From a virus, in IMG/VR virus record IMGVR_UViG_3300046810_000381, positions 1-27,940 of that record: a stretch of 27,940 nt of DNA; one strand, given 5' to 3'. The notes beneath the pieces were generated by a model. It saw only the letters and a list, made by a program, of their open reading frames with translations, was not told the origin of the DNA and searched no databases. Shown one piece after another: positions 2,099 through 17,404 of this stretch; the first letter of the stretch is position 1, and every line of letters starts with the position of its first letter. Made by a program: the position numbers and the translations under genes.

Positions 2099-2150
2099 CC
2101 CTGAGCATCGCACCTGACAGTGGCGCTGACTTTTAATCGAGTTTAAAGAG
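2099..2150 (-). promoter_or_regulatory. Late boundary element A, with hairpin leader
   Basis: A 21-base element at 2130-2150 occurs identically at 2692-2712, 9023-9043 and 17384-17404. It is an imperfect dyad with arms CTTTTAA and TTTAAAG around a 5-base centre. Here it lies about 77 bases upstream of the chaperone start. On the minus strand it is followed by a short stem (GCGCC/GGTGC) and the shared leader GCGATGCTCAGGG. The whole block 2099-2150 matches 2661-2712 over 52 bases with four mismatches. By position it is the equivalent of a Mu tail-operon late promoter. The promoter role is inferred. Confidence 0.6.
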
Positions 2151-2182
2151 GGGCCCTCACGACGGCCCCGCCTTTAAACTCG
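2138..2182. terminator. Long inverted repeat, probable bidirectional terminator
   Basis: CGAGTTTAAAG (2138-2148) and GGGGCC (2150-2155) pair with GGCCCC (2164-2169) and CTTTAAACTCG (2172-2182). This gives an almost continuous 17-bp stem with an 8-base loop. On either strand a GC-rich core is followed by a T-containing arm, as in bidirectional intrinsic terminators. It would end transcripts coming from the 2174-2631 cassette. It also contains half of boundary element A, so termination of one unit and initiation of the next are physically joined. Confidence 0.6.
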
Positions 2183-2338
2183 CAACGCTACAAAATCCCG
2201 CGCAATGGCTTGCTTGACCGCGGGTTCCATCCCCGAACTGCTGTGGTAGCTGCATACCAAACCACACTCCGATGAGGCCTGGTGCTGAGAAGTACCAGGT
2301 GCTCGGATCGTCAGGTTGATGTGGCGCTGTTTGTTCAG
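2174..2338 (-). CDS. Possible 54-aa protein with CTG start coupled to the upstream gene
   Basis: Directly at the end of the upstream gene a second frame opens in the overlap C-TGA (CTG 2338-2336, upstream stop 2337-2335). It runs 54 codons to a TAA inside the terminator stem. The product contains QRHINLTIRAPGTSQHQ and ends with MEPAVKQAIARDFVALRV. It has no ATG or GTG near the overlap, and the first in-frame ATG is codon 37. It could be made by reinitiation at CTG, by a -1 shift from the upstream frame, or not at all. It accounts for a stretch that otherwise has no gene. No family recognised. Confidence 0.3.
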   Translation of the reverse strand: MNKQRHINLTIRAPGTSQHQASSECGLVCSYHSSSGMEPAVKQAIARDFVALRV

Positions 2339-2631
2339 TCGAGCGGGAGCTCTACCGCTTCGCTTCCGCTTTCCATTACGCCAAGCGCCGCTTGGTCGAA
2401 CGCGAGATGGATCGGGGTAGCGCCTTGTTCATCCTCCCGCTCAAGCTCCCCCGCCAATTGCTTGAGGAACTGCTTGCGGTCGATGATCTTGCAGGGCTCG
2501 CCATCTTCATTTTTGGCGGGCCAGGTATCTGCCATCTCAGTGATGTTGCAGAGACAATCGATCCCGATTCGGATCACAAGATGGTCGCCCTCGATGCTAA
2601 CTGACAGTGCTTCTTGGGATGGTTCGTTCAT
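2335..2631 (-). CDS. Small accessory protein in the cassette between late elements A and B
   Basis: The 98-aa product (MNEPSQEALSVSIEGDHLVIRIGIDCLC) is acidic and soluble, with a beta-rich N-terminal half and a helical LKQLAGELEREDEQG segment. I chose ATG 2631 over the upstream ATG at 2670 because 2670 lies in the leader that is duplicated at element A. The ribosome-binding site is weak (GAG). The gene sits alone, or with the 54-aa frame, between two 52-base direct repeats and between two terminator-like hairpins, so it behaves as an inserted cassette in the tail region. No family recognised. Confidence 0.65.
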   Translation of the reverse strand: MNEPSQEALSVSIEGDHLVIRIGIDCLCNITEMADTWPAKNEDGEPCKIIDRKQFLKQLAGELEREDEQGATPIHLAFDQAALGVMESGSEAVELPLD

Positions 2632-2660
2632 GTAGTTGTGCTCGGGTGTGGGAGAAAGTC

Positions 2661-2712
2661 CCCTGAGCATCGCGCCTGGTCGTGGCGCTGACTTTTAATC
2701 GAGTTTAAAGAG
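2661..2712 (-). promoter_or_regulatory. Late boundary element B, with hairpin leader
   Basis: The second copy of the 52-base block. The 21-base core is at 2692-2712 and the GCGCC/GGCGC stem at about 2673-2689. On the minus strand it lies 30-80 bases upstream of the 98-aa gene and starts immediately after a strong terminator hairpin. Its near-identity with 2099-2150 shows a recent duplication or selection on the whole leader, not only the core dyad. Confidence 0.6.
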
Positions 2713-2745
2713 AAGCCCCGCACAATGGCGGGGCTTCGGTTTTCG
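2712..2745. terminator. Strong bidirectional intrinsic terminator
   Basis: GAAGCCCCGC (2712-2721) pairs perfectly with GCGGGGCTTC (2728-2737) around a 6-base loop. On the plus strand it is followed by GGTTTTCG, on the minus strand by TCTTTAAAC. It ends the minus-strand unit that finishes with the 78-aa gene at 2788. Boundary element B starts inside its minus-strand T-run. Confidence 0.8.
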
Positions 2746-2787
2746 TCCTGGCGGCTCCGATCCGTTGGAGCTAGTCCTAGTCATACA

Positions 2788-3024
2788 TCAACATTGCGGA
2801 CAGCCGCGGCAGCGACACTTTGGCGCGACCTGATAGCGGCCGGTCGCCAGCGCCATACTCAGTGCCTCAATCAAAATTTTTTTCGGGGTTCCTTCCAGAA
2901 CCTTGCCCCAGTAATGTTGCGCACGCATGAAGTCGATATCTCGACGTACCTGCATATCGATGCTTTTGATAATTTCATCGCGACTTTTTCCGCTTACTTG
3001 CGGTTCTCCTGGAGTCAATGACAT
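2788..3024 (-). CDS. Unknown 78-aa protein with C-terminal cysteine cluster
   Basis: The start is ATG 3024, preceded by an excellent GGAGGTGG ribosome-binding site. The product begins MSLTPGEPQVSGKSRDEI, has a helical centre (IDFMRAQHYWGKVLEG) and ends in KCRCRGCPQC, a Cys-x-Cys-x2-Cys-x2-Cys cluster that could bind a metal ion. Its start codon overlaps the start codon of the divergent gene at 3023. It ends 43 bases before a strong terminator. No family recognised. Confidence 0.65.
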   Translation of the reverse strand: MSLTPGEPQVSGKSRDEIIKSIDMQVRRDIDFMRAQHYWGKVLEGTPKKILIEALSMALATGRYQVAPKCRCRGCPQC

Positions 3025-3466
3025 GACCACCTCCAATATCAAACGATTCGACGAACTCACCGGCCAGATACTCGGCGTGCTGTATGAGAGCTTTCCAGTA
3101 CCACGTCATCTGTTGCTGAAAGAACTCTTACCTGATGGTTTTACACTCAATGATTTTTTGGGATACGAGATCCCCAACGAAGATGGTGAGTTTCTATTTG
3201 CTTGTATCGACTGGCTAGCCGAGTCGGGTTACTTGCGCTTCAAAGACAAGGTTCAAGCTACCGGTTACACCGAGAGCGTACTAACCGCCAAAGGCCTTGA
3301 GGTGCTGAAGGCAACCCCTGATAGCCTCAGCACCGGACCAACTCTTGGCGATCAACTGATTGATGCGACCAAGACTGGCGCCAAGGGGGTGGTCGGCAAC
3401 ATCGCCGGACAAGTTATGTCCCTTGGGTTCAAGTTCGCTTCAAATCACCTCGGCCTACCAGGCTGA
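3023..3466 (+). CDS. Divergent accessory protein with winged-helix-like N-terminal half
   Basis: The 147-aa product starts MTTSNIKRFDELTGQIL at ATG 3023 with GGAG nine bases upstream. Residues about 5-100 alternate helices with a short beta wing (FACIDWLAESGYLRFKDK, then ESVLTAKGLEVLKA), which resembles small winged-helix folds. The last 40 residues are Gly/Ala-rich and weakly hydrophobic (TKTGAKGVVGNIAGQVMSLG). It is a rare plus-strand gene within the late block, convergent with the tail-tube gene with one base between the stop codons. It is probably a lysogenically expressed accessory gene. Function unknown. Confidence 0.7.
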   Translation: MTTSNIKRFDELTGQILGVLYESFPVPRHLLLKELLPDGFTLNDFLGYEIPNEDGEFLFACIDWLAESGYLRFKDKVQATGYTESVLTAKGLEVLKATPDSLSTGPTLGDQLIDATKTGAKGVVGNIAGQVMSLGFKFASNHLGLPG

Positions 3467-3467
3467 C

Positions 3468-3992
3468 TCACGCCTGGCCGATGTTCTGCCTGTACTTGGC
3501 CAACTGATCCTCACCGCCCACGCGAAAGATGTTGGCCAGGTAATCCAGCAAAACCACCTCTTGCCCATTGAGTACCTGGCGGACATACGTCGCTGAAAAC
3601 GGCGTCTCGTACTTGGTCGGGTCTCGTGGTTTATGACTGCCCAGCTGATATTCCTTGCCAGTGATGGTCATCATCGTGACCAGCGCGATCTCGTCCACCA
3701 AGCCGCCGTTGTTGAAGACCTGGACGTTCGAGCGGCATTGCAACTGGACGCTCTTGAATGGCGTGACCAGCTTAACCGCCGCGTCGTAGTACATGCTGTT
3801 CCAGGTGATCTTGCCTTCCAGCTTATCGATACCGTCAGGCAGCTCGATGAGGCCGACCATTCCCAGCCCTTGAAAGTCGCTGGTCACGGTCTTGATTGAG
3901 CCCAGGTCGATCTCTTCGGCACGGCCAAAGAAGCTCGCGCCGTCGAGATAGATCGCTGCGTTGGAAACGCGGTGTGCACTAAAGCCTGCCAT
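3468..3992 (-). CDS. Major tail tube protein
   Basis: The 174-aa product (MAGFSAHRVSNAAIYLDG...LGSIKTVTSDFQGLGMVG) has the length and features of the P2 FII / contractile-tail tube family. These include the early variable loop, the GLIELPDGIDKLEGKITW segment and the late beta strands (LVTMMTITGKEYQLG). It polymerises as hexameric rings inside the sheath. Its ATG follows the TAA of the sheath gene directly, with GGGAG inside the end of that gene. It is the last gene of the unit that begins at boundary element C before the accessory insertions. Confidence 0.92.
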   Translation of the reverse strand: MAGFSAHRVSNAAIYLDGASFFGRAEEIDLGSIKTVTSDFQGLGMVGLIELPDGIDKLEGKITWNSMYYDAAVKLVTPFKSVQLQCRSNVQVFNNGGLVDEIALVTMMTITGKEYQLGSHKPRDPTKYETPFSATYVRQVLNGQEVVLLDYLANIFRVGGEDQLAKYRQNIGQA

Positions 3993-5417
3993 TTATGCGG
4001 CTCCCAGGTTGACCAGGTATTCCCCGGTGATTTCGGTTTCAAAGGTGCCGCGTTCGAACGGCAACGGCACAGTCAGCTTGTAGTTGAACAAGGCATGGCC
4101 CAGTTCCAGCTCTGGCTGGGGGTTACGTGCTGGGTCATACCAGCACTCGCCGCCGACTAAAGCCCCGTCGATGGTCAGCTTGCGCAGGAACAAGTTGACG
4201 CTTTCCGTGACGCTGTCGATCAACGAGGTAGTGATCGGCTGGTCTGAGAACTGCAGCGAGCTGTAACGAATCGACTCGTCCACCACATCCTTGGTGCGAC
4301 GAACGTTTTCGAAGTTGCGCATGTGCGTCACTGTCGGCCAGGCGGCGGTTCGGTTGCCCCACAAGCGCAGGCCGGTACCGAACGAATTGAAGACTGTGGT
4401 GATGCCATTTTCATTGAGCAGGTTGACCTCGCTGTTCGCGTCATCCACGCGGGCAGTCAATGGTCGCTCCAGCCCAATCACGCCTAACAACTCCTGGTTG
4501 GAGCTGCTCCACCAATAGCCCTTGTCGTTGTCGACTTTGGCCCGCAAACCAGCGGCGCGGATCGACAGTGGTTGCAAGCGCTCTCCGTTGGTTGCTGCGT
4601 CATACACCTTTACGTGGGGATAACACAGTCGTACGCGGTCACTGCTAGTGTTGAAATTGATCGCGCCTGCAGGACCTCGGCCCGCAATGACTTGTTGCAC
4701 CGTGGTGCCGATAGGCGCGTCGATATAGGCAGCGCCACTGACCTTGATGGCTTCCGAGGCCAATTCGACCCCCACTGAGTTCAGAGTACTGAAGCCTGGC
4801 GCGATGAAAATCTTCGCGAAAAAACCCAATGTGTTGTAGCTGTCCTGAAAGGCCTTCAAACCCGTGCGGCGTCCGGCGACGGTGATCCCGCCGATGATGT
4901 CGGCAGGCGTGACTTTGCTCGGGTCGGCATGGGTGTAACTGGCCTTCACTTGGCCGTTGGCTGGAATCGCTCCCGTCGCCAGACGCTTCACGCGACCGGT
5001 GAGCATGGTCACTGTGTAATCGGTGTCGAGTACGTACGGGGTATCACCGGCAGCAGACTTCAGCTGCAGCAGTTGTAATGCACCGCGCTCCAGCTGGAGC
5101 AGATCGTTATCCCCGAACTGTTTCACCTGGTCGACCACATTGGTGCGGTGAACAGCAGGGTCAAGCACGTTGATCACCAGCACCGTACCGGAGCCGAAAT
5201 CATAGATACCCTCCAGCGCTTCGGGAATGCTGAAGCCGGTGAGGTGTGAGCCGAACTGCGCCGCATCTTTATCGTTCAAGGACAAGGTCAGCTCATTGAC
5301 CGGGCCGATAGGCGCCGTGCCCACCAGGGCGATCACCGCCGACTTGACCACCCGAATGGCCCGTGGGCCACGCTCGACCTCGGTGGTTTCAATCCCGTGC
5401 AAATAGTTAGCAGGCAT
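3993..5417 (-). CDS. Contractile tail sheath protein
   Basis: The 474-aa product opens with the usual sheath N-terminus (MPANYLHGIETTEVERGPRAI, then VVKSAVIALVGTAPIGP). It continues with domains containing GFSTLNSVGVELASEA, AGRGPAGAINFN and the conserved late segment GTGLRLWGNRTAAWP, followed by NVRRTKDVVDESIRYSS. These are hallmarks of the myophage tail sheath family, which contracts around the tube to drive DNA delivery. The ATG is preceded by AGGAG at eight bases. This makes the phage a myovirus, like Mu and BcepMu. Confidence 0.96.
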   Translation of the reverse strand: MPANYLHGIETTEVERGPRAIRVVKSAVIALVGTAPIGPVNELTLSLNDKDAAQFGSHLTGFSIPEALEGIYDFGSGTVLVINVLDPAVHRTNVVDQVKQFGDNDLLQLERGALQLLQLKSAAGDTPYVLDTDYTVTMLTGRVKRLATGAIPANGQVKASYTHADPSKVTPADIIGGITVAGRRTGLKAFQDSYNTLGFFAKIFIAPGFSTLNSVGVELASEAIKVSGAAYIDAPIGTTVQQVIAGRGPAGAINFNTSSDRVRLCYPHVKVYDAATNGERLQPLSIRAAGLRAKVDNDKGYWWSSSNQELLGVIGLERPLTARVDDANSEVNLLNENGITTVFNSFGTGLRLWGNRTAAWPTVTHMRNFENVRRTKDVVDESIRYSSLQFSDQPITTSLIDSVTESVNLFLRKLTIDGALVGGECWYDPARNPQPELELGHALFNYKLTVPLPFERGTFETEITGEYLVNLGAA

Positions 5418-5422
5418 GGGCC

Positions 5423-5656
5423 TTACTCCTGTCCAGATTTCTGAGACGCAACCACAGCCTTGCTGGCAGATTTCGCGTCAGAAGGTGCAGGTACCAGGTG
5501 CTTGAGTTCCAACAACACTCGGGTGTACTCGTGATCGGCCGGCAACTCGACGGGTTTTCCAGGGAGCAGTTGCACTTCAAGCAATTCGCGGGCTTCGCCT
5601 ACTCGCAGGGAGGCGGCACTTGGCGGTCCGGTATAGATGTAACGGGTACGCGTCAT
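5423..5656 (-). CDS. Small tail-operon protein upstream of the sheath (Mu gp38 position)
   Basis: The 77-aa product (MTRTRYIYTGPPSAASLRVG...ELLEVQLLPGKPVELP) is short, beta-rich and ends in a Ser/Ala/Lys-rich tail. It overlaps the gp37-like gene by four bases (ATGA) and is five bases from the sheath start, so it is translationally embedded in the operon. Mu has a DUF2635-type small protein at this place, and the PGKPVELPADHEYTRVL segment is reminiscent of it. That family link is only tentative. Confidence 0.75.
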   Translation of the reverse strand: MTRTRYIYTGPPSAASLRVGEARELLEVQLLPGKPVELPADHEYTRVLLELKHLVPAPSDAKSASKAVVASQKSGQE

Positions 5657-6141
5657 AGGGGTTCCTCAAATTGAAGGTTGGGAGGTAGCGCTGGGCCGGT
5701 TGGAAATGGGGCTTGCACCTGAGTGGCCCGCATAGAGAAGTCCTGACCGTACTGCCAGACCCCACTCATTTGGCCGATGAACTGCTCGGCGATAGGACGG
5801 CACGCCTGATCGCAATGCGGTGCAAACCAGCCCGTCAGGCACGTGCGGATCTGATCAAGGAAGCTGATTACCCCGTCCTTGCCATTGAGCTGGCGAAACA
5901 CCAAGGTCAACCTGATGACGATGTTGCGTGACTGGAACATCGCGTCGCCGGATTCGGACCCACCGAAGGTCGATTTTCCGTAAGCCAACAAGATCGCCCC
6001 ACGCGGATGATTCAGTCGATAAGCTGTTGGGTTCTCGGGGAACAGCTCGACCATCAACGACGGCCCGAACTGATCCTGCAGTCGGACACGCATCGCATCG
6101 AGTAGCTGCTCGGTTTGGGTTTTGGGCAGGGTCCCGCTCAT
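5653..6141 (-). CDS. Mu gp37-like tail-terminator-region protein
   Basis: The 162-aa product (MSGTLPKTQTEQLLDAMRVR) contains PRGAILLAYGKSTFGGSE, VIRLTLVFRQLNGKDG and GWFAPHCDQACRPIAEQFIG. These features match the Gp37 family of Mu-like phages, which sits between head-completion genes and the sheath. I chose ATG 6141, in a TGATG overlap with the upstream stop and with GGAG at eight bases, over the upstream GTG-type frame start. The probable role is tail completion or head-tail joining, inferred from position. Confidence 0.85.
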   Translation of the reverse strand: MSGTLPKTQTEQLLDAMRVRLQDQFGPSLMVELFPENPTAYRLNHPRGAILLAYGKSTFGGSESGDAMFQSRNIVIRLTLVFRQLNGKDGVISFLDQIRTCLTGWFAPHCDQACRPIAEQFIGQMSGVWQYGQDFSMRATQVQAPFPTGPALPPNLQFEEPL

Positions 6142-6572
6142 CAGTAGCGCTCCCATAGATCGCTACCGAACTGCTGACGGCGTGCGCGCACACGAATTTC
6201 GCCGGGCTCTGGCGCCGCTTGGCCGCTGGGCATGCCCAGACTGACCACGCCGTCACGGATGCTGACCAAGAGTTTAATGGTGCCCATGCGGCTATCCATT
6301 ACTGCGTCGGGCAACGCCCCTTCGGGCCGGCGCTGATACAGCCAGTAACGCGCCAGGTACACCACTGCATCGCGCAACATGGTCGGAACAGGATCAAGCG
6401 GCAAGTCGTAGCGACCACGAAGATAGCCATCGACCAGCTCCTCAGCCTGACGGACGCTGTCCTCGATGACGCCCTCATTCGGCGACTCCGCAGCTGGGTC
6501 ATCGTTGGAGAGCTGAATCAGCGTCATCACTGGAATGGCGTTGCCGATGTCGGCGCGGGTGCAGTAGCGCAT
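6141..6572 (-). CDS. DUF1320-type head-tail connector protein (Mu gp36-like)
   Basis: The 143-aa product has the clear N-terminal signature MRYCTRADIGNAIP, then VRQAEELVDGYLRGRYDLPLDPVPTMLRD, typical of Mu gp36 / DUF1320 adaptor proteins. These form a ring joining portal and tail. The C-terminus (RVRARRQQFGSDLWERY) is also family-like. It starts three bases after the capsid stop and overlaps the next gene by one base. Confidence 0.92.
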   Translation of the reverse strand: MRYCTRADIGNAIPVMTLIQLSNDDPAAESPNEGVIEDSVRQAEELVDGYLRGRYDLPLDPVPTMLRDAVVYLARYWLYQRRPEGALPDAVMDSRMGTIKLLVSIRDGVVSLGMPSGQAAPEPGEIRVRARRQQFGSDLWERY

Positions 6573-6575
6573 AAA

Positions 6576-7556
6576 TCAGCCCGCCTTCAGCTCTACCAGG
6601 GCCTCAGGGAACAGGCACATGGCCAACGGGTTCGCCTGGGCTTCCAAATTCCAACCTTTGCCCATCTTGCGTTCTTCTGCCTTGCTGTAGAACGGCTGGC
6701 CCAGGGTGTTGACGGTTTCGTTGTAGTTGGCCGGTGCGTTGAACATGCGGAATACGCCACGGGCCACCGGGAACACCTGGGCGATATCGACCGGAATGAA
6801 ACGTTGGCCACTGACCGTGACGTCATACTCGATGTACTCGATGCCGCCGAAAGTGAAGCCGGAGCGCACATCACCACCGAGTCGGTCTTGTGCTTCCTGG
6901 TAGTTGGCAAATGCAGCTTTGACTTTTTCATGGTCGATCATCGCGTCGAACCAATCCGGCCCGCACAGTGCACGAAAGCCCGTAACCATTACGCCGCCCA
7001 GCTTGGACTCGGCGTAACGTTTGGCATCGAGGCAAGCCTTGCGTACGTTTGTGTCGGCATTGCTCAGGGCAACCGTAATCTTCTTTTGGCTAACCTCAAA
7101 CTCGTTGAAGAGGTCGAACATAACTTCGCCGTCTGCGTCCAACAACTTGCCGCGCAAAGCGCCCACACGCTGAAACTCACGGGTGGCCTCAATACTGTTT
7201 TTCAGCTCTTGCAGGTTGTCGTTGATCACTGTGGCCACAGGCGCGGTAGTGCTTTCCTGGCCAAACGCAGCGATGCCTTGCAACTGGCTTGGCAAGATTG
7301 GCCGGTTGATCGGCAGATGCAGTGTTTCGAAGCTTCGGCGCTTGCGTTTACCAGCCTTGATAGCGGCAGCATCGTCGTTGCGCGAGGTGTTTGGGACAAG
7401 TACCAGGCGGCCTTCGTGTTCATCGATCACCACGCTGGTAGTGGTGACGCCTTTTTCTTCAAACAACCCCATCGCGCCGACTTTGCCGGGAATGGCAGGG
7501 AGTTTGTTCACCGCAGCGGTGAGGTTGGCGATGCTGAACATATCTTGCAAATTCAT
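6576..7556 (-). CDS. Major capsid protein (lambda gpE / phage capsid E family)
   Basis: I chose ATG 7556 (MNLQDMFSIANLTAAVNKLP) because it has AGGAG at seven bases. The longer open frame back to 7739 overlaps the decoration gene and reads as its shadow. The 326-aa product has the capsid-E features TTTSVVIDEHEGRLVLVP, the basic loop KAGKRKRRSFETLHLP, and GPDWFDAMIDHEKVKAAF near the centre. Its C-terminus contains ANPLAMCLFPEALVEL. Mu itself uses a different HK97-like capsid gene, while several BcepMu/B3-like phages carry this gpE type next to a gpD-like decoration protein, as here. Confidence 0.95.
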   Translation of the reverse strand: MNLQDMFSIANLTAAVNKLPAIPGKVGAMGLFEEKGVTTTSVVIDEHEGRLVLVPNTSRNDDAAAIKAGKRKRRSFETLHLPINRPILPSQLQGIAAFGQESTTAPVATVINDNLQELKNSIEATREFQRVGALRGKLLDADGEVMFDLFNEFEVSQKKITVALSNADTNVRKACLDAKRYAESKLGGVMVTGFRALCGPDWFDAMIDHEKVKAAFANYQEAQDRLGGDVRSGFTFGGIEYIEYDVTVSGQRFIPVDIAQVFPVARGVFRMFNAPANYNETVNTLGQPFYSKAEERKMGKGWNLEAQANPLAMCLFPEALVELKAG

Positions 7557-7569
7557 GGAATACTCCTGA

Positions 7570-7938
7570 TCAGAGGGCCTTACGGGCAACGATGCCAAGG
7601 GCGTTAAGTTCGTCCAGGGCGGTGGCCTTCTGGGGTTCGGTGACGCCGTCTGGCCATGCCAGTTCGGTGGAGTCGATGACGGCGCCGCGAGAAACCACCA
7701 CGCCTGACTTGTCACCGGCTGTTGCGTCCACGGCTTCAATCAAAACCGCCGCAGATTTTTTGGCAGTGCCAGTGCCTGCGAGATCGAGCGCCTGATATTT
7801 GCCGGAGACTTTCGCCAGAACCTGGCCAAACGGGTAATTCGTTCCACCCAGCAGCGTGACTTTGTCTTTGGTCCAGCCGGGGCAGACCTCGACCAAGAGC
7901 AAGTCCCCCGGATCTTTCGGTTGAGTAAACGTGGCCAT
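7570..7938 (-). CDS. Head decoration protein (lambda gpD-like)
   Basis: The 122-aa product contains the N-terminal PGWTKDKVTLLGGTNYPFGQVL segment and VLIEAVDATAGDKSGVVVSRGAV. This matches the gpD-type trimeric decoration protein family that stabilises expanded capsids. The ATG at 7938 has GGAGG at five bases. It lies between the protease/scaffold gene and the major capsid gene, as in lambda-style head modules. Confidence 0.93.
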   Translation of the reverse strand: MATFTQPKDPGDLLLVEVCPGWTKDKVTLLGGTNYPFGQVLAKVSGKYQALDLAGTGTAKKSAAVLIEAVDATAGDKSGVVVSRGAVIDSTELAWPDGVTEPQKATALDELNALGIVARKAL

Positions 7939-7946
7939 GAGGCCTC

Positions 7947-8966
7947 CTATCGTTTGGAGCGGGCTTCAGCATCGGCCAGCAATGGGTTGGTGGTTTGGGC
8001 AACGGTCTTGCCGGCACGGGTCTTGGTGGCGACTTCAGCGAAACTGACGCCGCCGGCCAGGTCGTTGAAAATGGCTTTGAGGCCGTCAACCAGCGGTTCG
8101 CGCTCGTCGTCTTCGCCAAACTCCAGCGGCGTTGCACTCGACTCCGCGTAATCCAATGCCGCAATCACTGCAGGGGCGTGTACCGGTTTCATCCCGGCTG
8201 CCACCAGCTTCTCCGCGTACTCAACACTGGCAGCGTGGATCGTCTCCTGCGCGGCGATACGGGCAGTTTTGTCGCGCTTGGCGATGTCGGCCTTCAGTTG
8301 TTTGTTCTCCGCCTCCAAGGCGGCTTTTTCTTGCTCATTCACGGGGGATACCTCGGCGGCGCGGTGGGATTCAGAGAAAGCGGTGTTCAATTCCTGCTTT
8401 GGCTCGCGGCCAATTTCGGCGAGGCTTTCGATAGCCCAGGACGGGGCCACCTGGTCGGCGATGTCTTTGTCGAATTTGCCGATGAGCCATTCTCGGAAGC
8501 GGCGCCACATGTCGGAGTTGAGTTCGTGGCCGTAATCGCCGAATTGGATAACGCCTTCCTCGTCGTCCGCCAATTCGATGGGGCGAAGGCCTTTCACAGC
8601 AGGAGGTTGGGCGCCGAGGAAGCCGACATGACGCAGGTAGTACACGCCGGGCACGGGGTTATTGGCGGCGTCGGGATGGTAGAAGGAAGCGGAGATTTTT
8701 TTGTAGCTGCCCTTGGCCACCTGTTCGGCGAACGCGGCATCAACTTGCTGCGGCTCGGCAATCAGACCTTGCGCAGTAGCCGTCAGCGACTTGATCCAGC
8801 CAGCGGCCGGGGCGTCATGCTTCGGGTGGCCGATGACCATCGGAGCTTCGTGCAAGGCTGGGTCGTACGCGCTCACCGTGGCGGCCAGATCAGACTCGCT
8901 AAAGTCGAAGCTGACGCCACACATGGCAGTGTGCGAACCGGGCTTGAAGATGTGCAGTGGTTTCAT
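7947..8966 (-). CDS. Capsid maturation protease and scaffold (Mu gpI/Z-like)
   Basis: The 339-aa product (MKPLHIFKPGSHTAMCGVSF) begins with the Mu-like protease domain: ESDLAATVSAYDPALHEAPMVIGHPKHDAPAAGW, then the KKISASFYHPDAANNPVPGVYYLRHVGFLG core with the serine in the SASF segment. A central acidic, coiled region (EQEKAALEAENKQLKADIAKRD) and a helical C-terminus look like the scaffold. In Mu the scaffold Z is made from an internal start in the same frame, and that could occur here too. A longer frame from TTG 9008 exists, but its start lies in the hairpin next to boundary element C, so ATG 8966 is preferred. Confidence 0.92.
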   Translation of the reverse strand: MKPLHIFKPGSHTAMCGVSFDFSESDLAATVSAYDPALHEAPMVIGHPKHDAPAAGWIKSLTATAQGLIAEPQQVDAAFAEQVAKGSYKKISASFYHPDAANNPVPGVYYLRHVGFLGAQPPAVKGLRPIELADDEEGVIQFGDYGHELNSDMWRRFREWLIGKFDKDIADQVAPSWAIESLAEIGREPKQELNTAFSESHRAAEVSPVNEQEKAALEAENKQLKADIAKRDKTARIAAQETIHAASVEYAEKLVAAGMKPVHAPAVIAALDYAESSATPLEFGEDDEREPLVDGLKAIFNDLAGGVSFAEVATKTRAGKTVAQTTNPLLADAEARSKR

Positions 8967-8998
8967 GGCTGTGCGCTGCGTGGAGGTGATGCGCACAG

Positions 8999-9021
8999 CC
9001 TGGGCCAATGAATGGCCCAGG
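8999..9021. other. Perfect 9-bp hairpin beside late element C
   Basis: CCTGGGCCA (8999-9007) pairs with TGGCCCAGG (9013-9021) across a 5-base loop. On the minus strand it is two bases downstream of element C and would form the 5' leader of the protease operon. On the plus strand it is followed by ACTTTTAATC and would resemble a terminator. All four copies of the element have a stem on this same side. Confidence 0.65.
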
Positions 9022-9022
9022 A

Positions 9023-9043
9023 CTTTTAATCGAGTTTAAAGAG
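9023..9043 (-). promoter_or_regulatory. Late boundary element C, upstream of protease/head operon
   Basis: An identical copy of the 21-base dyad element (arms CTTTTAA and TTTAAAG). It lies 56 bases upstream of the protease ATG and 16 bases downstream of the stop of the accessory gene at 9060. Mu places its PI late promoter directly before the protease gene I, which supports a late-promoter or activator-site role. Confidence 0.65.
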
Positions 9044-9059: not shown

Positions 9060-9863
9060 TCAGAAATTGCCTTTGAGGTGGGGCGTAATTTTGAAACGCT
9101 CAAAGATCGGTCCCGAGCGAATCTGATTCAGGAGATTCCAATAGCAACTTTTACCAAAGGGGTGCGCTATCTCAGCGGGATACTGATACCGATATCTACC
9201 AGTGCCGTCATCTTCACGAATTATGCTTCGATGAAATTCGGGGGTGAGATAGGTCTGGATGCCCCACCAAAGCTCATTCAGGAATTCGGCAATTGTGCTG
9301 GCATGATAGGCGGCGACATCGATGTGAAAGACTTCATAAATCTCCGGCAGCGCGAGAATTGCTTGGTGCAGTTCCACGTCTGCCCCAGCGTTCGACAGAA
9401 GGCGTTGCAGATCTTTGGCAACGCCCACCGAGCGAAGGAAATTATGCTTGGATAGATTGCCGCCGATTTTCAGTAACAAGCTTCGAGATATTTGCAGAAC
9501 TATCTGCTGATCAATAGAGGGGAGCCAAGCGTCTACCTCGATCTCTGTATCAAGCCAGTTCGAAAAACTATCAACGGTCTGTTTCAGGTGTGCCACCGAT
9601 CCGAATTGTTCAAAGCTCGGATCGTTGGCAATGGTCCGTAGTGCGTTCAAATAGGAGGTCTTCGGCACAGGGGCATCTTTGTCAGTCATGGATAAAAAAT
9701 CCACCAACGCGATTGAAAAAAACTGCTTATGAGTAGACGACTCGAACCAAACGTTTTTGTGCTCCCCCTCACCGATGACACTGAACAAGGCTCTATTGAC
9801 CATCGATCTAATCAGCTCCACGACGGCAGTAAGATAAACGACCTCTTGCTCCATTTTGTTCAT
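9060..9863 (-). CDS. Unknown 267-aa accessory protein inserted in the head operon
   Basis: The product starts MNKMEQEVVYLTAVVELI at ATG 9863 with GGTGAG upstream; a GTG at 9872 is an alternative. It is mostly helical (ELIRSMVNRALFSVIG, LVDFLSMTDKD, SRSLLLKIGGNLSKHNF) with a Trp/Tyr-rich C-terminal third (NELWWGIQTYLTPEFHR, RYRYQYPAEIAHPFGK). No signal peptide or transmembrane segment is visible. The DNA is clearly AT-richer than the flanking head genes, and the gene is placed exactly between the gpG-like gene and boundary element C. That is the hallmark of a moron. A defence or exclusion function is plausible but unproven. Confidence 0.8.
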   Translation of the reverse strand: MNKMEQEVVYLTAVVELIRSMVNRALFSVIGEGEHKNVWFESSTHKQFFSIALVDFLSMTDKDAPVPKTSYLNALRTIANDPSFEQFGSVAHLKQTVDSFSNWLDTEIEVDAWLPSIDQQIVLQISRSLLLKIGGNLSKHNFLRSVGVAKDLQRLLSNAGADVELHQAILALPEIYEVFHIDVAAYHASTIAEFLNELWWGIQTYLTPEFHRSIIREDDGTGRYRYQYPAEIAHPFGKSCYWNLLNQIRSGPIFERFKITPHLKGNF

Positions 9864-10005
9864 CTGGCTCACCGCAACCTACCTTCTACGCGCAGCCCCC
9901 CACCAAGAGAGGCTCAATGAGCCTTTATAAAGCCTTTACGACGATTTTTCAGTGGCTGTGTTGATGAACCGGAGCCGCTAGGTCTGCTGGGCGCTTCCAG
10001 AGGGG
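9864..10005. other. 142-base intergenic gap between gpG-like gene and accessory gene
   Basis: No gene is seen. The stretch contains a short palindrome (GGCTC-AAT-GAGCC, about 9910-9922) and, on the minus strand, two direct AAAGGCT repeats around TATAAA. It would be the natural place for an independent promoter of the accessory gene. I see no convincing -35/-10 pair. Confidence 0.5.
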
Positions 10006-10482: not shown

Positions 10483-10492
10483 TTGAAATCTC

Positions 10493-11317: not shown

Positions 11318-11318
11318 A

Positions 11319-12815
11319 TCAGTCCTCCCGATCTGCAGCGGCGCTCAAGCGGCCCCAAGTGTCGGCAATGAACAACAAGTCTGCGAGTTGTTGCTGCAGC
11401 GCCTCGCCGTCCATCTGCGGCAGCGCCTCAGCCAGTAAGCCAAGAGCCTCCGAGTCGCTGCGGGCGCGTTGCAGTACTTCAATCAGGGGGGCCACGGCTT
11501 GTTCGGCCTGCTGTTGCAGCGCTTCGGCGGGCAAGCTATCAATGGCCTGATCGAGGGCGATTTGATCCAGTAAAGGCCGCAAAATAGGCTCGGCAAACTC
11601 CGGCGATTCGACGGTGGCCACCGCCTCATTGATATCGCCATCCTGCAGGTTATAGGTGCGCTTCCAGTAAGCGTTGGTGAACTTCACCCCGGACTCAGTC
11701 AGAGCCTTGTCGCGCTGGGCCAGGGTTTTGTCGATCTCTTCTTGTTCCCATAGCTCGTACAGCGGCGCCACCACGTCAGGACCAAAATTGAGGTCGACGA
11801 CTAGACGAATACAAGCGTTCAACGACGCAGCAACGATGCCAGCATCGCCGTCACGAATATCATTAGTGACTTCCGCCCCGGCCGTTGCGCTGGCCCGGTT
11901 ACTTTCTTTCTCCGTGGTCTGGTTTTGTCCGAGCATCGCCACGTTGATTTCGCTGCGACAGTATTCCAGCAGCTCGCGATAGACCTCGGCGCTATCGGCT
12001 TTGCCAGCGGCTTCGATGATCTGCACGCTGGAGTCATCCGGGATCGAGGCGACAGCGTCTTGCACCATGGCTTCCAGGCTATCAAGCAACAAATCGGTTT
12101 CGCCATCCGTGGCGCCGCGTGGGTGTTTACCGATGACCCATGGGGTGCCGTACTTTTCGGTGAACTGCACCCAGAACTTCAGACCGCCTTTCATAAAGGT
12201 TGCCGGCCAAAAGCACATGCTGAGATCTGGAAAACCGTACGGGTTAATGTAGGTCGCGTCTTGTCGGGCCACGATAAAGCGTTGCGGGTCACACAATTCG
12301 CCGTCCTGGCCCGCTTCCTTTGAGCGAAAGCGCAGTGCGTTGTCCTTGTCGTAGAAAAACCATTCGGCCGGTTTGCCGAGCAGGTCTTCCGGCACCAGAT
12401 GCATGCCCACCGGTTGCCACATGAGTTCGATGGGCTGGTAACCGAACAACGGTGCATCGAGCAGCTCGCGGATGATGCGATCCAGGTCAAGGTCAGTCAG
12501 CCAGTCTCGGATGAAACGCTCGACCTTAATCGGTGCATCGCCACGCTTGATACCTCGCTCCAGGGATAACACAGCAGACTTGCGACGGCGCACGTTGCCA
12601 CCGACTAACGCCGAACTGCGCAGATCGCGGTAGACGGTAATGTCTTTGCCTTGCGCTTTGAGGATCGGGTCAGGATTCGGCAGGTTAGCGCCACTGAAAC
12701 CGCCCGCACTAGAGCGACCACGCGTGGCGATATGTTGGTTGAGCGAGGAGCTGTGTTTGGCATCAGCGAAGCTGACGAATTCGGTGGGGCTGACCCACAA
12801 ACCTTTCTTGTTCAT
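11319..12815 (-). CDS. Portal protein (Mu gp29-like, DUF935)
   Basis: The 498-aa product contains the DUF935 portal features DLDRIIRELLDAPLFGYQPIELMW, PATFMKGGLKFWVQFTEKYGTPWVIGKHPRGA, and an acidic helical C-terminal region (DSEALGLLAEALPQMDGEALQQQL). The dodecameric portal is the DNA channel and terminase docking site. Its start overlaps the terminase stop by four bases. The LGQNQTTEKESNRASA segment is typical for the family. Confidence 0.95.
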   Translation of the reverse strand: MNKKGLWVSPTEFVSFADAKHSSSLNQHIATRGRSSAGGFSGANLPNPDPILKAQGKDITVYRDLRSSALVGGNVRRRKSAVLSLERGIKRGDAPIKVERFIRDWLTDLDLDRIIRELLDAPLFGYQPIELMWQPVGMHLVPEDLLGKPAEWFFYDKDNALRFRSKEAGQDGELCDPQRFIVARQDATYINPYGFPDLSMCFWPATFMKGGLKFWVQFTEKYGTPWVIGKHPRGATDGETDLLLDSLEAMVQDAVASIPDDSSVQIIEAAGKADSAEVYRELLEYCRSEINVAMLGQNQTTEKESNRASATAGAEVTNDIRDGDAGIVAASLNACIRLVVDLNFGPDVVAPLYELWEQEEIDKTLAQRDKALTESGVKFTNAYWKRTYNLQDGDINEAVATVESPEFAEPILRPLLDQIALDQAIDSLPAEALQQQAEQAVAPLIEVLQRARSDSEALGLLAEALPQMDGEALQQQLADLLFIADTWGRLSAAADRED

Positions 12816-14419
12816 GCGTACCCCTGGGTAATGCGTTTGCCCTGACGGCGGCGACGGGATTTAACGGAAACGGGGCCGGAGCTGACTTCTAGCGTGGCAA
12901 AGTTGGCCAGCGCACCCGCCCCCGCGAAGTCGCCATGGCGGTACAGGTCCGGGTCCTTAAGATCTTGCGAGCGGGCTTTGACGATCATCGGGATGCCATC
13001 CACCAGTTCGATGGAGCGCACGTCCTGGTGCAGCGAATCATCGAGCGGCAATGTGATGTTGGCGTCTTCAAACAACTGCACAAATTTCGGCATCCAGGCG
13101 CCGTACCAGGTTCGGCTGATCTTCACCTGGTGAATACGATTGCGACCGAACTCATCGGCCGTCTCCTCGGCAAGTGTTTCGCCGCTGCCGGTAGCATCCA
13201 GTGCTGCACCGACAAAACGCGGCAGACCTCGCAGGATGTAAAAGAGAACCTGTTTTTGTTGGCGGGTCGGTACTTTGTGCATCTCCACCACAAACGGCAC
13301 ATCGCGGTGCCGGACCTGATCGACCGACATCGGGCAGATGATGGAGAAGTCACGATGCCGGGCGTAGTCCATGCCCAAAAAGTGACGCAGGTCAGGCGTC
13401 AAAGCCTGCTGCATCAAGGGCGTCAGATAGCGCCCGATCCAGTCATCAACATAGGCTTCGCGGCGATACACCGGCTGTTGGGTGAAGTCGTCGTCCAACG
13501 CCAGGCGCAGTACCACCCGACCGGGGCGCATGGCCTCATCGATCCACACGCCAGGAATGCACACGCCGTTGCCGTCACGTGGGATCGCATCAAGCTCTTC
13601 ACGCATCTGTGCCTTACGCGGGCCATAGGCGTTGCGAATCTTCTTGTACCAGGCTTCCTTCTCTTCGGCCGTAGCGACCTTGCCGGCCATGAAACACACC
13701 CGCTCAAACAAGCCGTTGGCCACAGCGTCATCAAAGGTCGCCCGGTAGACTTCGGCACTGTCGCCGTAACGTTTGTCCCGGATGTCATTGACCATCTGGT
13801 TGAACGCGTTGCCCTTACCGTTATGGGTACTGATGATGACGATCCGACCGCCCCAGATCAGCAATGCCGTAGCGGCATCGAGCACGGCCGACACGTCACG
13901 GTGAAACGCGGCTTCGTCGATGATGACCTTACCCTGCAGACCACGCACACCGGCAGGGTTGCTCGACAGAGCTACGATCTTGAAGCCCGAGGCGTAGCGG
14001 ATGCGGTAGGCGTTGATTTGCCGAGTGTTGCCCGCGTCGTCCTGGTCGTCGAACAGAAACTCCTCGATCTCGCTGACGCCGGATGACTGCGCCTCGGCCA
14101 TGACCCGACTGAACTTGGCGCAGTAGCCAATGAACTCCAGACCTTTTTCCTTGGTGTCACCGATGTAAAAGCAGTCCATACCCCCAGCAGACTTTTGCGA
14201 AGCTGCGGTGATGACCGATTCCAATGCCTCGGCGAAGGTAATGCCGGTGCGGCGACCTTTTTCGCAGAGTTTGATCTGTGCGTCGATGGCCAGCCATTCC
14301 GACTGGTGGGCCATCAAGATGCCCTCGTCCAGCGGGTTGTATCCAGCCGGGATTTCTCGGACGCTCGGTGGAAGCTCGTCCCACTCGATAACACGCAGTG
14401 TGCTTCCTGAGGGTTTCAT
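12812..14419 (-). CDS. Terminase large subunit (Mu gp28-like)
   Basis: The 535-aa product has a deviant Walker A (EKGRRTGIT, residues about 53-61), a Walker B with catalytic acid (KVIIDEAA, 164-171) and a coupling motif around IISTHNGKG. The C-terminal RNase H-like nuclease begins at LGMDYARHRDFS, with Asp351. This is the headful packaging motor of Mu-like phages, which cuts host-flanked phage DNA. It overlaps both neighbours by four bases. The nucleotide-binding and nuclease residues I can identify are intact. Confidence 0.95.
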   Translation of the reverse strand: MKPSGSTLRVIEWDELPPSVREIPAGYNPLDEGILMAHQSEWLAIDAQIKLCEKGRRTGITFAEALESVITAASQKSAGGMDCFYIGDTKEKGLEFIGYCAKFSRVMAEAQSSGVSEIEEFLFDDQDDAGNTRQINAYRIRYASGFKIVALSSNPAGVRGLQGKVIIDEAAFHRDVSAVLDAATALLIWGGRIVIISTHNGKGNAFNQMVNDIRDKRYGDSAEVYRATFDDAVANGLFERVCFMAGKVATAEEKEAWYKKIRNAYGPRKAQMREELDAIPRDGNGVCIPGVWIDEAMRPGRVVLRLALDDDFTQQPVYRREAYVDDWIGRYLTPLMQQALTPDLRHFLGMDYARHRDFSIICPMSVDQVRHRDVPFVVEMHKVPTRQQKQVLFYILRGLPRFVGAALDATGSGETLAEETADEFGRNRIHQVKISRTWYGAWMPKFVQLFEDANITLPLDDSLHQDVRSIELVDGIPMIVKARSQDLKDPDLYRHGDFAGAGALANFATLEVSSGPVSVKSRRRRQGKRITQGYA

Positions 14420-14967
14420 TGCTTCACGCCCAGGAACTTCTGGCGCCAGAACATGGCCTGGTCTTCGGTCATACCTTTGGCTTTTACGGCACTATCCAAC
14501 TCAGCTGCTTGTTCCTGGAGCAGACGTTCCCGCGTAGCTTTCTCGATGGTCTGACGTTCCTTGATGCTCAGGGTGCGAGCCTGCATGGTGTTTTTGGCAG
14601 CACGCGCCAACTCGGCCACTTCCTTGGTGGTGACATCATCCTTTTCGTGGGCCCCCATCGCAGCCTGGTAAGCCAGGGTCGAGATGGCCTCAACGAGCAA
14701 GGCACCGGTCTTGTCGGTCGCGTCTTCACCGAAGGCGCCAACAAAGGCTTCCGCCTGCTCACGATGCTGGCGGGCTTTTTCCGTTAGCAGATCAAAGCCC
14801 ATCTTGAAACGACCCAGGGCGCTACGGCTGGGGGCTTTCTCGTTGGGAAAGCGCCCCTGGATATCGGCCAGCATGTCATTTAGGGTCATGCGGTCTTCGC
14901 GCAGCAGCTTCTGAATGTAGGCCTTGACCATCGATGGCAGGCGGTTGATGGAGGACTTGCCCGCCAT
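14416..14967 (-). CDS. Probable terminase small subunit (Mu gp27-like, DUF3486)
   Basis: The 183-aa product (MAGKSSINRLPSMVKAYIQKLL) shows the DUF3486 pattern. An N-terminal helix-turn-helix-like segment (MTLNDMLADIQGRFPNEKAPSRSALGRF) is followed by long helices and a short C-terminal tail ending MFWRQKFLGVKQ. It lies directly before the large terminase with an ATGA overlap, consistent with DNA recognition for packaging. Confidence 0.9.
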   Translation of the reverse strand: MAGKSSINRLPSMVKAYIQKLLREDRMTLNDMLADIQGRFPNEKAPSRSALGRFKMGFDLLTEKARQHREQAEAFVGAFGEDATDKTGALLVEAISTLAYQAAMGAHEKDDVTTKEVAELARAAKNTMQARTLSIKERQTIEKATRERLLQEQAAELDSAVKAKGMTEDQAMFWRQKFLGVKQ

Positions 14968-14969
14968 GG

Positions 14970-15263
14970 TTATGCCCCCGGCCGCTTGATGCCGTGTACG
15001 CGAGCACGCCCGGCGGCAATGTCCTGACCACGCTCGGACAGCGTGGCGACCATTACCGGCCCGACATCCTCAAGGGTCAGCGCCCCTTGTTCGGCTAACC
15101 AATGCAGTTCGGTTTTCACCTGGTCACGGCTGAGGGTGTGACCGTAGCTATCCAGCGCCATGGTCAGTACGGAGCTGTTGGCGCGATAAGCCGTCATCTC
15201 GACCAGCAGGCGCAGGATCACCAGGCGAATGTCCTGGCGGATAAACTCGGCGTATTGAGTCAT
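14970..15263 (-). CDS. Mu gp26-like small winged-helix protein
   Basis: The 97-aa product (MTQYAEFIRQDIRLVILRLL) has a winged-helix look: helices, then LSRDQVKTELHWLAEQGALTLEDVGPVMVATLSERGQDIA. Proteins of this type precede gp27 in many Mu-like phages, often annotated as ArsR-like or VpaChn25_0724-like. It overlaps the gp25-like gene by four bases. The biochemical role is unknown. Confidence 0.85.
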   Translation of the reverse strand: MTQYAEFIRQDIRLVILRLLVEMTAYRANSSVLTMALDSYGHTLSRDQVKTELHWLAEQGALTLEDVGPVMVATLSERGQDIAAGRARVHGIKRPGA

Positions 15264-15565
15264 GTTTTTTCTCGCAACAAGTAATCATTGATCCGGTCCA
15301 GCGAACGGGCTAAAGGGCCAAGCGCATCCTTGACCCCCGACAGTTCGGCACGTACGGCTTTCATGTCGCCCAACAGATCGGTCACGGCCGTCTGGTCTGG
15401 AAGGTGCCGCACGTGCTCCTCCAGGGCGACGATGCGGGTTCGCAGCTCCAGCAATTCATGGGCACTGGCGGCCTGGCGTTTGGTCATCCATGTGTAGATG
15501 CTGAGTACCGTAAGAATTAGCCACTGCACGGTCTGGAAGCCAAAGTTGAGTTCGTTCAAGTTCAT
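15260..15565 (-). CDS. Mu gp25-like membrane-anchored protein (DUF2730)
   Basis: I chose ATG 15565 (MNLNELNFGFQTVQWLILTV), in an ATGA overlap with the upstream zinc-finger gene, rather than the longer frame from 15607. The 101-aa product has one transmembrane segment (about residues 12-28, ending SIYTWMTKR) and a coiled-coil tail (LELRTRIVALEEHVRHL). This matches DUF2730 proteins of Mu-like phages. It is usually found between lysis and packaging genes. Confidence 0.87.
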   Translation of the reverse strand: MNLNELNFGFQTVQWLILTVLSIYTWMTKRQAASAHELLELRTRIVALEEHVRHLPDQTAVTDLLGDMKAVRAELSGVKDALGPLARSLDRINDYLLREKT

Positions 15566-15783
15566 GCGAAACCCCGCGTGGCCAAGTGTTCCAAGGCGTC
15601 TATGCAATCAAAACAATGTTCGGTGCCAGGCTCCGCCTGGCGACGATCTTCGGGTATGGCGTCACCGCATTCCTCGCAGCGATGGGCCGAACGCCCTGAG
15701 CCCCGCCGCAATCTGCTGTTAAGAACGCGCAGCGCGGCCTCTTCAATGTCGTCTTCCTCTGTAGCGCGTTCAGCTACATCCAT
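15562..15783 (-). CDS. TraR/DksA-type zinc-finger protein
   Basis: The 73-aa product has a C4 zinc finger, Cys36-x2-Cys39-x17-Cys57-x2-Cys60 (CEECGDAIPEDRR ... HCFDC). An acidic N-terminal helix is preceded by MDVAERATEEDDI. Short TraR-like proteins of this size bind the secondary channel of RNA polymerase and mimic DksA/ppGpp effects. In phages they may bias host transcription late in infection. The start overlaps the end of Rz1 by ten bases. Confidence 0.92.
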   Translation of the reverse strand: MDVAERATEEDDIEEAALRVLNSRLRRGSGRSAHRCEECGDAIPEDRRQAEPGTEHCFDCIDALEHLATRGFA

Positions 15784-16091
15784 AGGGCGTCAGTCCTTTT
15801 CTTGGAGATCAAGCAGAGCATTGAGTTGGCCAAGGTTGGATCGGGCCCACACGCCATAATCCTGGGCGTGGGCAAGGATGTCGGCCGGAGTGACGCCGCT
15901 TTCCAGTAGCTCGGCGTCAGTGCCGGTGGCGGGCCAGGCCGCTTTTTCAGCAGGGGTGGAAGTGGCACCCGGTCTTGGGGTGGGTACACCGAGGGCGGTG
16001 TTGTAGTCGCGCAGCCAGCCAGCAGTGAACACGCAACGAGGGATAGGCTTAGCAACAGCGCCAGGCGCTGCAATGTATTGGGTCGTGACAT
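15774..16091 (-). CDS. Rz1-like outer-membrane spanin lipoprotein, nested in Rz
   Basis: The 105-aa frame starts at ATG 16091 with GGAG at nine bases, inside the Rz-like gene in a different frame. It has a signal peptide (LALLLSLSLVACSLLAGC) with lipobox LAGC at Cys27. A proline-rich segment follows (TTPPSVYPPQDRVPLPPLL, then KKRPGPPPALTP). This nested lipoprotein with proline-rich body is diagnostic of Rz1 o-spanins, which fuse inner and outer membranes with Rz. It runs 16 bases past the Rz stop. Confidence 0.9.
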   Translation of the reverse strand: MSRPNTLQRLALLLSLSLVACSLLAGCATTTPPSVYPPQDRVPLPPLLKKRPGPPPALTPSYWKAASLRPTSLPTPRIMACGPDPTLANSMLCLISKKRTDALWM

Positions 16092-16392
16092 GGGGGATGC
16101 GCTCCAGGAGCTGGCGTTTTTCTGTCGTAAAACGGTCGAATGTGGCAAACAGCAGGGCCTCGGCTTCGGTGGCGCGGGTGATTTGCTGCAGCAGCTGCAC
16201 ACGATTGGCGGACTCGGCGACGAGCGCCTGTTCAACGTGCGAGGTTTTCAGTTTTTCCAGCTCGGATTTGCCCAGCGCGTGGGCATACCGAAAGCCAAAG
16301 CCATAGGCGATTGAACCGGCCGCCGACGCACTAAACACGCAGGCCAATACAGCGGCCGTCAGCCCTGATGGCAACCGATCAAGCACGCCCAT
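15790..16392 (-). CDS. Rz-like inner-membrane spanin
   Basis: The 200-aa product has an N-terminal signal-anchor (LTAAVLACVFSASAAGSIAY) and a long periplasmic coiled-coil region (KSELEKLKTSHVEQALVAE, then TRATEAEALLFATFDRFTTEKRQ). This is the layout of class-I i-spanins. The nested Rz1 frame confirms the assignment. It overlaps the preceding small membrane protein by 14 bases and completes the endolysin-holin-spanin cassette. Confidence 0.9.
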   Translation of the reverse strand: MGVLDRLPSGLTAAVLACVFSASAAGSIAYGFGFRYAHALGKSELEKLKTSHVEQALVAESANRVQLLQQITRATEAEALLFATFDRFTTEKRQLLERIPHVTTQYIAAPGAVAKPIPRCVFTAGWLRDYNTALGVPTPRPGATSTPAEKAAWPATGTDAELLESGVTPADILAHAQDYGVWARSNLGQLNALLDLQEKD

Positions 16393-16591
16393 GGTGGTGC
16401 CTCATACGGTTACGGGATTTGCGCGCACGACGCTTTGCCGCTGCGATGCCGGTCTTGCCGTGACGGTAAGGATGAATAGCAGTGGGCTTGATCCAGCTGC
16501 CAGCGGCTGTACTGGGAATGGTCCAGCGCCAGGCCCCAATCAAGCCCGCCAGTAGTGCAGTGAAGGTTCGACCAAACAGGTTCAATCTCAT
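16379..16591 (-). CDS. Small one-TM protein with strongly basic tail, lysis cassette
   Basis: The 70-aa product (MRLNLFGRTFTALLAGLIGAW) has one hydrophobic segment (about residues 8-22) followed by a very basic C-terminus (KRRARKSRNRMRHHHGRA). It overlaps the holin-like gene by four bases (ATGA) and the Rz gene by 14, so it is translationally locked into the cassette. It could be a second holin or antiholin, but the family is not recognised. Confidence 0.7.
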   Translation of the reverse strand: MRLNLFGRTFTALLAGLIGAWRWTIPSTAAGSWIKPTAIHPYRHGKTGIAAAKRRARKSRNRMRHHHGRA

Positions 16592-16806
16592 GACTGAACC
16601 TCCTGATCAGGGCCTTGTTTGATCAGGCGAGCGACAAAGAGCAGCAAGCCCAGAACGCTGTTGAGCGTGGCGTAGGCCCTGGGCGAAAGCTGTACCTGCC
16701 ACAATGGCAGCAGCTCAAGTTGAGCGAAGCCAAACAAAGCGATCAACACGCCTAGTTGGACGCTGTACAGCTTGTAGCAGCAACGCCAGCCGCAGATCAG
16801 CTTCAT
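16588..16806 (-). CDS. Probable holin (two-TM, DUF7940-like)
   Basis: The 72-aa product starts MKLICGWRCCYKLYSVQLGV, with hydrophobic segments at about residues 15-30 and 47-61 (NSVLGLLLFVARLIKQG). Its size, two membrane segments and position directly after the endolysin (ATGA overlap) and before the spanins make it the best holin candidate. Similar proteins are common next to P5-like endolysins in Pseudomonas Mu-like prophages. Confidence 0.8.
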   Translation of the reverse strand: MKLICGWRCCYKLYSVQLGVLIALFGFAQLELLPLWQVQLSPRAYATLNSVLGLLLFVARLIKQGPDQEVQS

Positions 16807-17300
16807 GCTGGCACCTCACCTTTGCCATGCACGATGCCGCGGTCAATGCCAGCCAGTGCCAGCCCGTCAACGATGATTGGGTCGCCGTACCACTGGCCAC
16901 CGGGCAGTGGACCAAAGCCGTTTTCGTGGCGGATGACGGCCAGGGCCAGGACGCGCATAACTTCAAAGTCATAGACATCGACGCCTTCAAAATCAGGATC
17001 GAGTCCCAAGGCGCGGGCTACATTCAGCGCATAGGCATTGGTGTTGTTTTCGGATGGAGGCGCCCAGCGCTCGATGATCTCGCGGACGCTATCGATGCGA
17101 CTGCCATCGGCGGCCAGACGTTTGTCCTGGTAGGTGATGAGTACACGGGCAATAGCCCGAATACCCCAGTGCGGGGCGGTGAACTGTACGAACTCGCTAT
17201 CGCTCTGGGCGACAGCCATGCCTTGCCAGCGCACACCTTTGGCGTGACGGATGTTGCCGGGATTGAAATTGCGGATACCGCGAGGGGGTTCGGGTCGCAT
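16803..17300 (-). CDS. Endolysin / P5-like lytic transglycosylase
   Basis: I chose ATG 17300 (MRPEPPRGIRNFNPGNIR) because it has AGGAGG at about five bases. Upstream in-frame starts lie in the leader hairpin. The 165-aa product shows the P5-type muralytic pattern: RGIRNFNPGNIRHAKGVRWQG, FVQFTAPHWGIRAIARVLITYQ, then IIERWAPPSENNTNAYALNVA. These enzymes cleave the glycan strands of peptidoglycan. No signal peptide is present, so release would need the adjacent holin. It is the first gene of the late lysis unit. Confidence 0.92.
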   Translation of the reverse strand: MRPEPPRGIRNFNPGNIRHAKGVRWQGMAVAQSDSEFVQFTAPHWGIRAIARVLITYQDKRLAADGSRIDSVREIIERWAPPSENNTNAYALNVARALGLDPDFEGVDVYDFEVMRVLALAVIRHENGFGPLPGGQWYGDPIIVDGLALAGIDRGIVHGKGEVPA

Positions 17301-17348
17301 GGGACGCCTCCTGTAACGACGCCGCCAGTTTCGGGCGCCAGAAATACA

Positions 17349-17372
17349 CACGCCGCCATGATGGGCGGCGTG
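17349..17372. other. 9-bp leader hairpin of the lysis operon
   Basis: CACGCCGCC (17349-17357) pairs perfectly with GGCGGCGTG (17364-17372) around a 6-base loop. It lies 11 bases downstream of element D on the minus strand and 49 bases before the endolysin ATG. It has no U-run on the minus strand, so it looks more like a leader structure than a terminator in that direction. Confidence 0.6.
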
Positions 17373-17383
17373 GTACAGGAGGG

Positions 17384-17404
17384 CTTTTAATCGAGTTTAA
17401 AGAG
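17384..17404 (-). promoter_or_regulatory. Late boundary element D, upstream of lysis operon
   Basis: The fourth identical copy of the 21-base dyad. It sits between the stop of the SLATT-like gene (17406) and the endolysin, where Mu has its Plys late promoter. It would start the long unit running through lysis, packaging and portal genes. The flanking bases differ from the other copies, so the core itself is conserved. Confidence 0.65.

Follow-up and report, generated by a model that had tools for sequence, protein, structure and literature searches.

In phage Mu, the activator Mor binds the promoter Pm at -51 to -36 (centre -43.5), upstream of and overlapping the -35 region, and Pm has a -10 but no -35 (PMC4287176). 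For the second Mu activator, C, the binding sites at Plys, PI, PP and Pmom lie upstream of the -35 position (PMC4461284). Here we analysed a window of 27,940 bases, which is an IMG/VR record without other contig and carries its early genes on the plus strand, with a transposase gene and, at the end, a gene of the Mor family, and its late genes on the minus strand. Four copies of one dyad precede the late units, and we consider it about 90% probable that they are the activator-binding sites of the late promoters of a Mu-like (BcepMu-related) phage, at which its single Mor would activate a predicted -10 element.

The 21-mer CTTTTAATCGAGTTTAAAGAG is present as exact copies at 2130, 2692, 9023 and 17384, all in one orientation, and reads CTCTTTAAACTCGATTAAAAG along late transcription. 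The number of copies expected by chance is 0 (none in 100 shuffles), and beyond the four copies the window contains no match at up to three mismatches. Scoring with a weight matrix built from 254 related sites gave 47-48 bits for the four copies and -7 for the next best window position, revealing no fifth dyad. The sequence-only reading had counted four identical dyads and placed each just upstream of a minus-strand unit; both claims were confirmed, as the copies directly precede the endolysin gene (17384), protease I (9023), a cargo gene (2692) and the tail chaperone gene (2130). Its assignment of the copies to lysis, protease/head and tail units holds for the boundaries, with one correction: 2692 and 2130 are a single tail promoter, duplicated around the cargo gene. 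A baseplate site, present in relatives, would in this phage fall past the left end of the record. The dyads and the genes that they concern are as follows.

17384..17404, minus strand: dyad of the lysis promoter, candidate activator site; exact copy, relatives have a matching boundary
9023..9043, minus strand: dyad of the putative protease I/head promoter; exact copy, relatives have a matching boundary
2692..2712, minus strand: dyad of the putative first (duplicate) tail promoter, before the cargo gene 2335-2670; exact copy, five sites also in the close relative G031
2130..2150, minus strand: dyad of the putative tail promoter before the tail assembly chaperone gene; exact copy, relatives have a matching boundary
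16803..17351, minus strand: endolysin frame, first gene of the lysis unit (PHROG 873 endolysin, E=9e-55)
7947..9008, minus strand: head maturation protease I, with a probable ATG start within the frame near 8966 (PHROG 976, E=9e-114)
2335..2670, minus strand: cargo gene between the two tail-promoter copies (weak PHROG matches of unknown function)
1739..2113, minus strand: tail assembly chaperone, first gene of the tail unit, with a probable start within the frame (PF10109, E=3e-12)
27332..27694, plus strand: last gene of the early region, encoding a 120-aa activator of the Mor/C family, the proposed dyad binder (PF08765, PHROG)

The site and its placement recur in related phages. Exact copies of the 21-mer were found in 92 stretches of viral contigs. 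Its core, CTTTAAANNNGATTAAAAG, occurs exactly four times per contig, on one strand, in all 20 relatives of 34-42 kb, in which a reversed-pattern control gave no match. A further 18 relatives carry the core on one strand four times (17 contigs) or five times (one contig), the latter being the close relative of the window, G031, with the same extra tail copy; two of these 18 records have one additional opposite-strand match each, which is the palindromic reading of the same site. Altogether, 37 of 38 related contigs, all of them uncultivated and without a completeness estimate, carry exactly four dyads, before the lysis, protease I, tail and baseplate units. The annotated Pseudomonas aeruginosa phage Komp_PAO1_1 has four sites as well, located before the protease I, tail, baseplate wedge (GPW_gp25) and lysis genes. 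Diverged dyads, hand-anchored on the core TAA-N6-TTA, mark these four boundaries in the Escherichia phage PhiKM, which is filed under Bcepmuvirus, in KP12 of Klebsiella and in AFS-2018a of Pasteurella. In the P. aeruginosa phage Bise, diverged dyads anchored in the same way lie ahead of genes for lysis, protease I, gp36 and baseplate. In Bise, the third late site (19271) precedes a gp36-family gene, not the tail chaperone, the late units being divided differently. The search of related phages that the sequence-only reading had proposed as a check thus returned the same boundaries in 38 contigs and diverged dyads in other genera. By-eye inspection of phage Fc02, the Mor of which is about 34-38% identical, gave no clear dyad. 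Across GTDB species genomes, sites were found nearly exclusively in Pseudomonas, in many species.

To a large extent, sequence upstream of the dyad is not shared between phages, and downstream sequence is conserved by class. The upstream flanks being highly variable among relatives, the dyads mark hot spots for cargo genes. In the window, accessory genes of unknown function (9060-9872, 17406-18137 and 2335-2670, all on the minus strand) end just before late promoters or sit between them; searches of the cargo genes against defence, NCBIfam and Pfam models gave no match.

Aligning 16 promoters, one per lineage and class, which are not fully independent because the four lineages share common ancestry, left few invariant columns: the TAA and TTA of the dyad, separated by six bases, and one A and one T. 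These last two, 22 and 26 bases past the dyad end, are the only invariant bases outside it, and independent random shifts of the 16 promoters yielded 0 invariant columns in 20,000 trials. Within the -10 hexamer of sigma-70 promoters, no bases are more critical than A(-11) and T(-7). The invariant A and T are predicted to belong to a weak -10 hexamer, NANNNT, positioned 20 bp downstream of the dyad. Both bases were present in 56 of 58 Pseudomonas sites versus three of nine matches in unrelated taxa in a genome scan whose search did not require them. Setting the T as -7 puts the predicted +1 33 bases past the dyad end, at the following positions.

17358..17363, minus strand: predicted -10 hexamer CATCAT of the lysis promoter, predicted +1 at 17351 (A(-11)/T(-7) invariance, 16 promoters)
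8997..9002, minus strand: predicted -10 hexamer CAGGCT of the protease I promoter, predicted +1 at 8990 (A(-11)/T(-7) invariance)
2666..2671, minus strand: predicted -10 hexamer GATGCT of the duplicate tail promoter, predicted +1 at 2659 (16-promoter comparison)
2104..2109, minus strand: predicted -10 hexamer GATGCT of the tail promoter, predicted +1 at 2097 (16-promoter comparison)

Relative to this start, the dyad spans about -51 to -33 (-53 to -33 for 17384..17404) and its TAA-N6-TTA core is centred at -42.5, which agrees with the layout of Mu Pm within a base or so. A search for canonical sigma-70 promoters gave no match at the four window sites, and the predicted geometry is that of Mor/C-activated late promoters, in which a -10 lacking a -35 partner is combined with a dyad-symmetric site near -51 to -36. 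Whereas Mu proceeds from Mor to C and from C to its late promoters, the same geometry is found here directly before the late units. As at Mu Plys, PI, PP and Pmom, a dyad for a dimer of the Mor/C family would lie upstream of a non-consensus -10 (PMC4461284), with one activator serving dispersed late units. The sequence-only reading had equated the boundaries with those of the Mu promoters; in the window and its relatives, this holds for lysis and protease I, and the tail region is served too, but a tail promoter at the chaperone gene and a baseplate promoter at the gpW/gp25 gene take the place of P and mom. Further differences from Mu are the dyad sequence, which is neither the C site nor the Mor site of Mu, the lack of a C gene apart from Mor, and the predicted leaderless start of some units. 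The arrangement also resembles that of the BcepMu-related phages PhiKM, Komp_PAO1_1 and KP12, in which late and early genes likewise occupy opposite strands, a single Mor gene is present and sites stand at the same four boundaries, although in the enterobacterial members the site is diverged.

The candidate activator is encoded at 27332. Its product matches PF08765 with E=3.2e-31 and 107.9 bits (cut-off 24.9) as well as a PHROG annotated 'late transcriptional activator', and its relatives of known structure are Mu Mor (PDB 1rr7) and Mu C (PDB 9l0x). That it is the only Mor/C-family protein of the window, as noted from the sequence, was borne out by the PF08765 search, which likewise identified exactly one such gene in each of 25 relatives searched and two in Mu (Mor and C). 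A Mu-type three-stage cascade employs two genes, Mor and then C, with a middle operon between; with one gene in 25 of 25 relatives, we infer that a two-stage cascade fits this group better. Mor proteins only 37-40% identical overall occur in phages that keep the same site, and their second helices (SLxxVYxVVK) resemble one another, whereas those of Mu C and Bise differ; this pairing of a similar helix with the same site in diverged proteins is consistent with binding by Mor. Family membership, co-occurrence and analogy make the 27332 Mor the probable dyad-binding protein. The late region also encodes a DksA/TraR-like C4 zinc finger protein (15562-15783, minus strand), which could modulate RNA polymerase at the late promoters.

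The predicted start points coincide with start codons in several units. At the baseplate unit, the ATG lies at the predicted +1 in 29 of 30 Pseudomonas-clade sites and at +2 in the other, and codon-position bias begins right after this ATG (non-consensus 0.03, 0.04 and 0.19 at positions 1, 2 and 3). The baseplate ATG is also at +1 in PhiKM and KP12 and at +2 in AFS-2018a and Komp_PAO1_1, and in Bise the ATGs, which are the annotated starts, coincide with the predicted +1 at all four units. A start codon on the predicted +1 implies leaderless mRNAs; we accordingly predict from these alignments that the baseplate unit and the four units of Bise are transcribed into leaderless late mRNAs, which, if true, would be unusual for virion genes. 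For protease I, the predicted transcript starts with AUCACCUCC (about 8982-8990, minus strand), a sequence conserved in part of the clade only and resembling the 3' end of 16S rRNA; the protease I ATG has no evident Shine-Dalgarno sequence.

Each dyad had been described as followed by a short hairpin on the transcribed side. Downstream folding indeed stood out at 9023 (z -4.2) and 17384 (z -2.3), whereas 2692 (z -0.3) and 2130 (z 0.6) were at background level, and the hairpin is not general in relatives: compared with shuffles, their spacer folds are strong only in the lysis class (mean z -2.28), weak in the protease I and baseplate classes and absent from the tail class. The hairpin varies among protease I promoters and flanks the -10 in lysis promoters. 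Lying between dyad and +1, it would not be part of the late mRNA if the predicted start is right. Given this distribution, we rejected the idea that the element includes an RNA hairpin. On the other side of the dyad, upstream, hairpins are enriched in the tail class (mean z -3.0), and the window has such a structure at the 2692 copy.

2712..2737, minus strand: GC-rich hairpin immediately before the 2692 dyad, resembling a terminator of the preceding unit and followed by the dyad's CTCTTT (sequence)

A palindrome around the -10 is constant in lysis promoters. In the window it reads GCCGCC[CATCAT]GGCGGC (17349-17372, minus strand), and palindromes also surround the -10 in promoters of PhiKM (GGGGGC[AATACT]GCCCCC-ATG), AFS-2018a and Bise.

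A rival explanation regards dyads and adjacent hairpins as terminators or RNA elements that end the preceding transcripts or stabilize or process mRNA, rather than as promoters. In its favour, hairpins flank some copies, a scan reported terminator-like sites at 2712 and 8999 (plus strand) and 17372 (minus strand), and tail-class dyads have strong hairpins upstream. We nevertheless regard this explanation as very improbable, since hairpins are not general, the sequence upstream is mostly unrelated between phages while that downstream is conserved, and the register of A(-11) and T(-7), fixed over four lineages, is to be expected of a -10 element but would serve no purpose in a terminator.

The stoperators of mycobacteriophage L5 are likewise identical, scattered among the genes and uniformly oriented, and the dyads could then be repressor operators or stoperators silencing late genes in the prophage. 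No site is present at the early/repressor region, however, the window dropping from 47-48 bits at the four copies straight to -7; moreover, the fixed spacing to the -10 favours activation and a Mor-family activator is present in each relative, so that we rate silencing lower still. The least probable explanation is that a phage-specific RNA polymerase or sigma factor uses the 19-mer itself as its core promoter and that the hairpin belongs to the 5' leader. This would account for the shortness and near invariance of the 19-21-mer, the unrelated sequences upstream of it and the hairpins that follow some copies, but neither an RNA polymerase nor a sigma factor gene is listed for the annotated relatives, and both the -10 register and the start codons at exactly +1 would be left unexplained.

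Activation by Mor, the favoured explanation, would work as follows. The single Mor/C-family protein, produced at the end of the early region, would bind the dyad as a dimer, on the core centred near -42.5, and recruit host RNA polymerase to the weak NANNNT -10 that lies 20 bp downstream and lacks a -35 partner. RNA would start about 33 bp past the dyad, and the lysis, protease/head, tail and, outside the window, baseplate units would be switched on together. Constant site number, orientation, boundaries, the fixed -10 register, conservation across genera, the single Mor gene and a position like that of Mu Mor were all computed, and they support the Mor/C-type late promoters suggested by the sequence-only reading; from them we infer the binder, the start points and activation. 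An extended model, in which one Mor drives an early-to-late cascade, late promoters overlap the start codon, the major late units are leaderless (baseplate in all four lineages, all four in Bise) and the -10 palindrome controls read-through coming from upstream units, is more tentative, and we would give it somewhat less than even odds.

The literature searched, which mostly did not cover subscription journals, contained no published account of these promoters. Together, these findings provide a testable late regulon, comprising site, -10, start point and activator, for widespread Mu-like prophages of Pseudomonas, enterobacteria and Pasteurella. They extend Mor-type promoter geometry beyond Mu, to a different site and a single activator, and, as the dyads delimit hot spots of accessory genes, they offer an aid to finding cargo genes.
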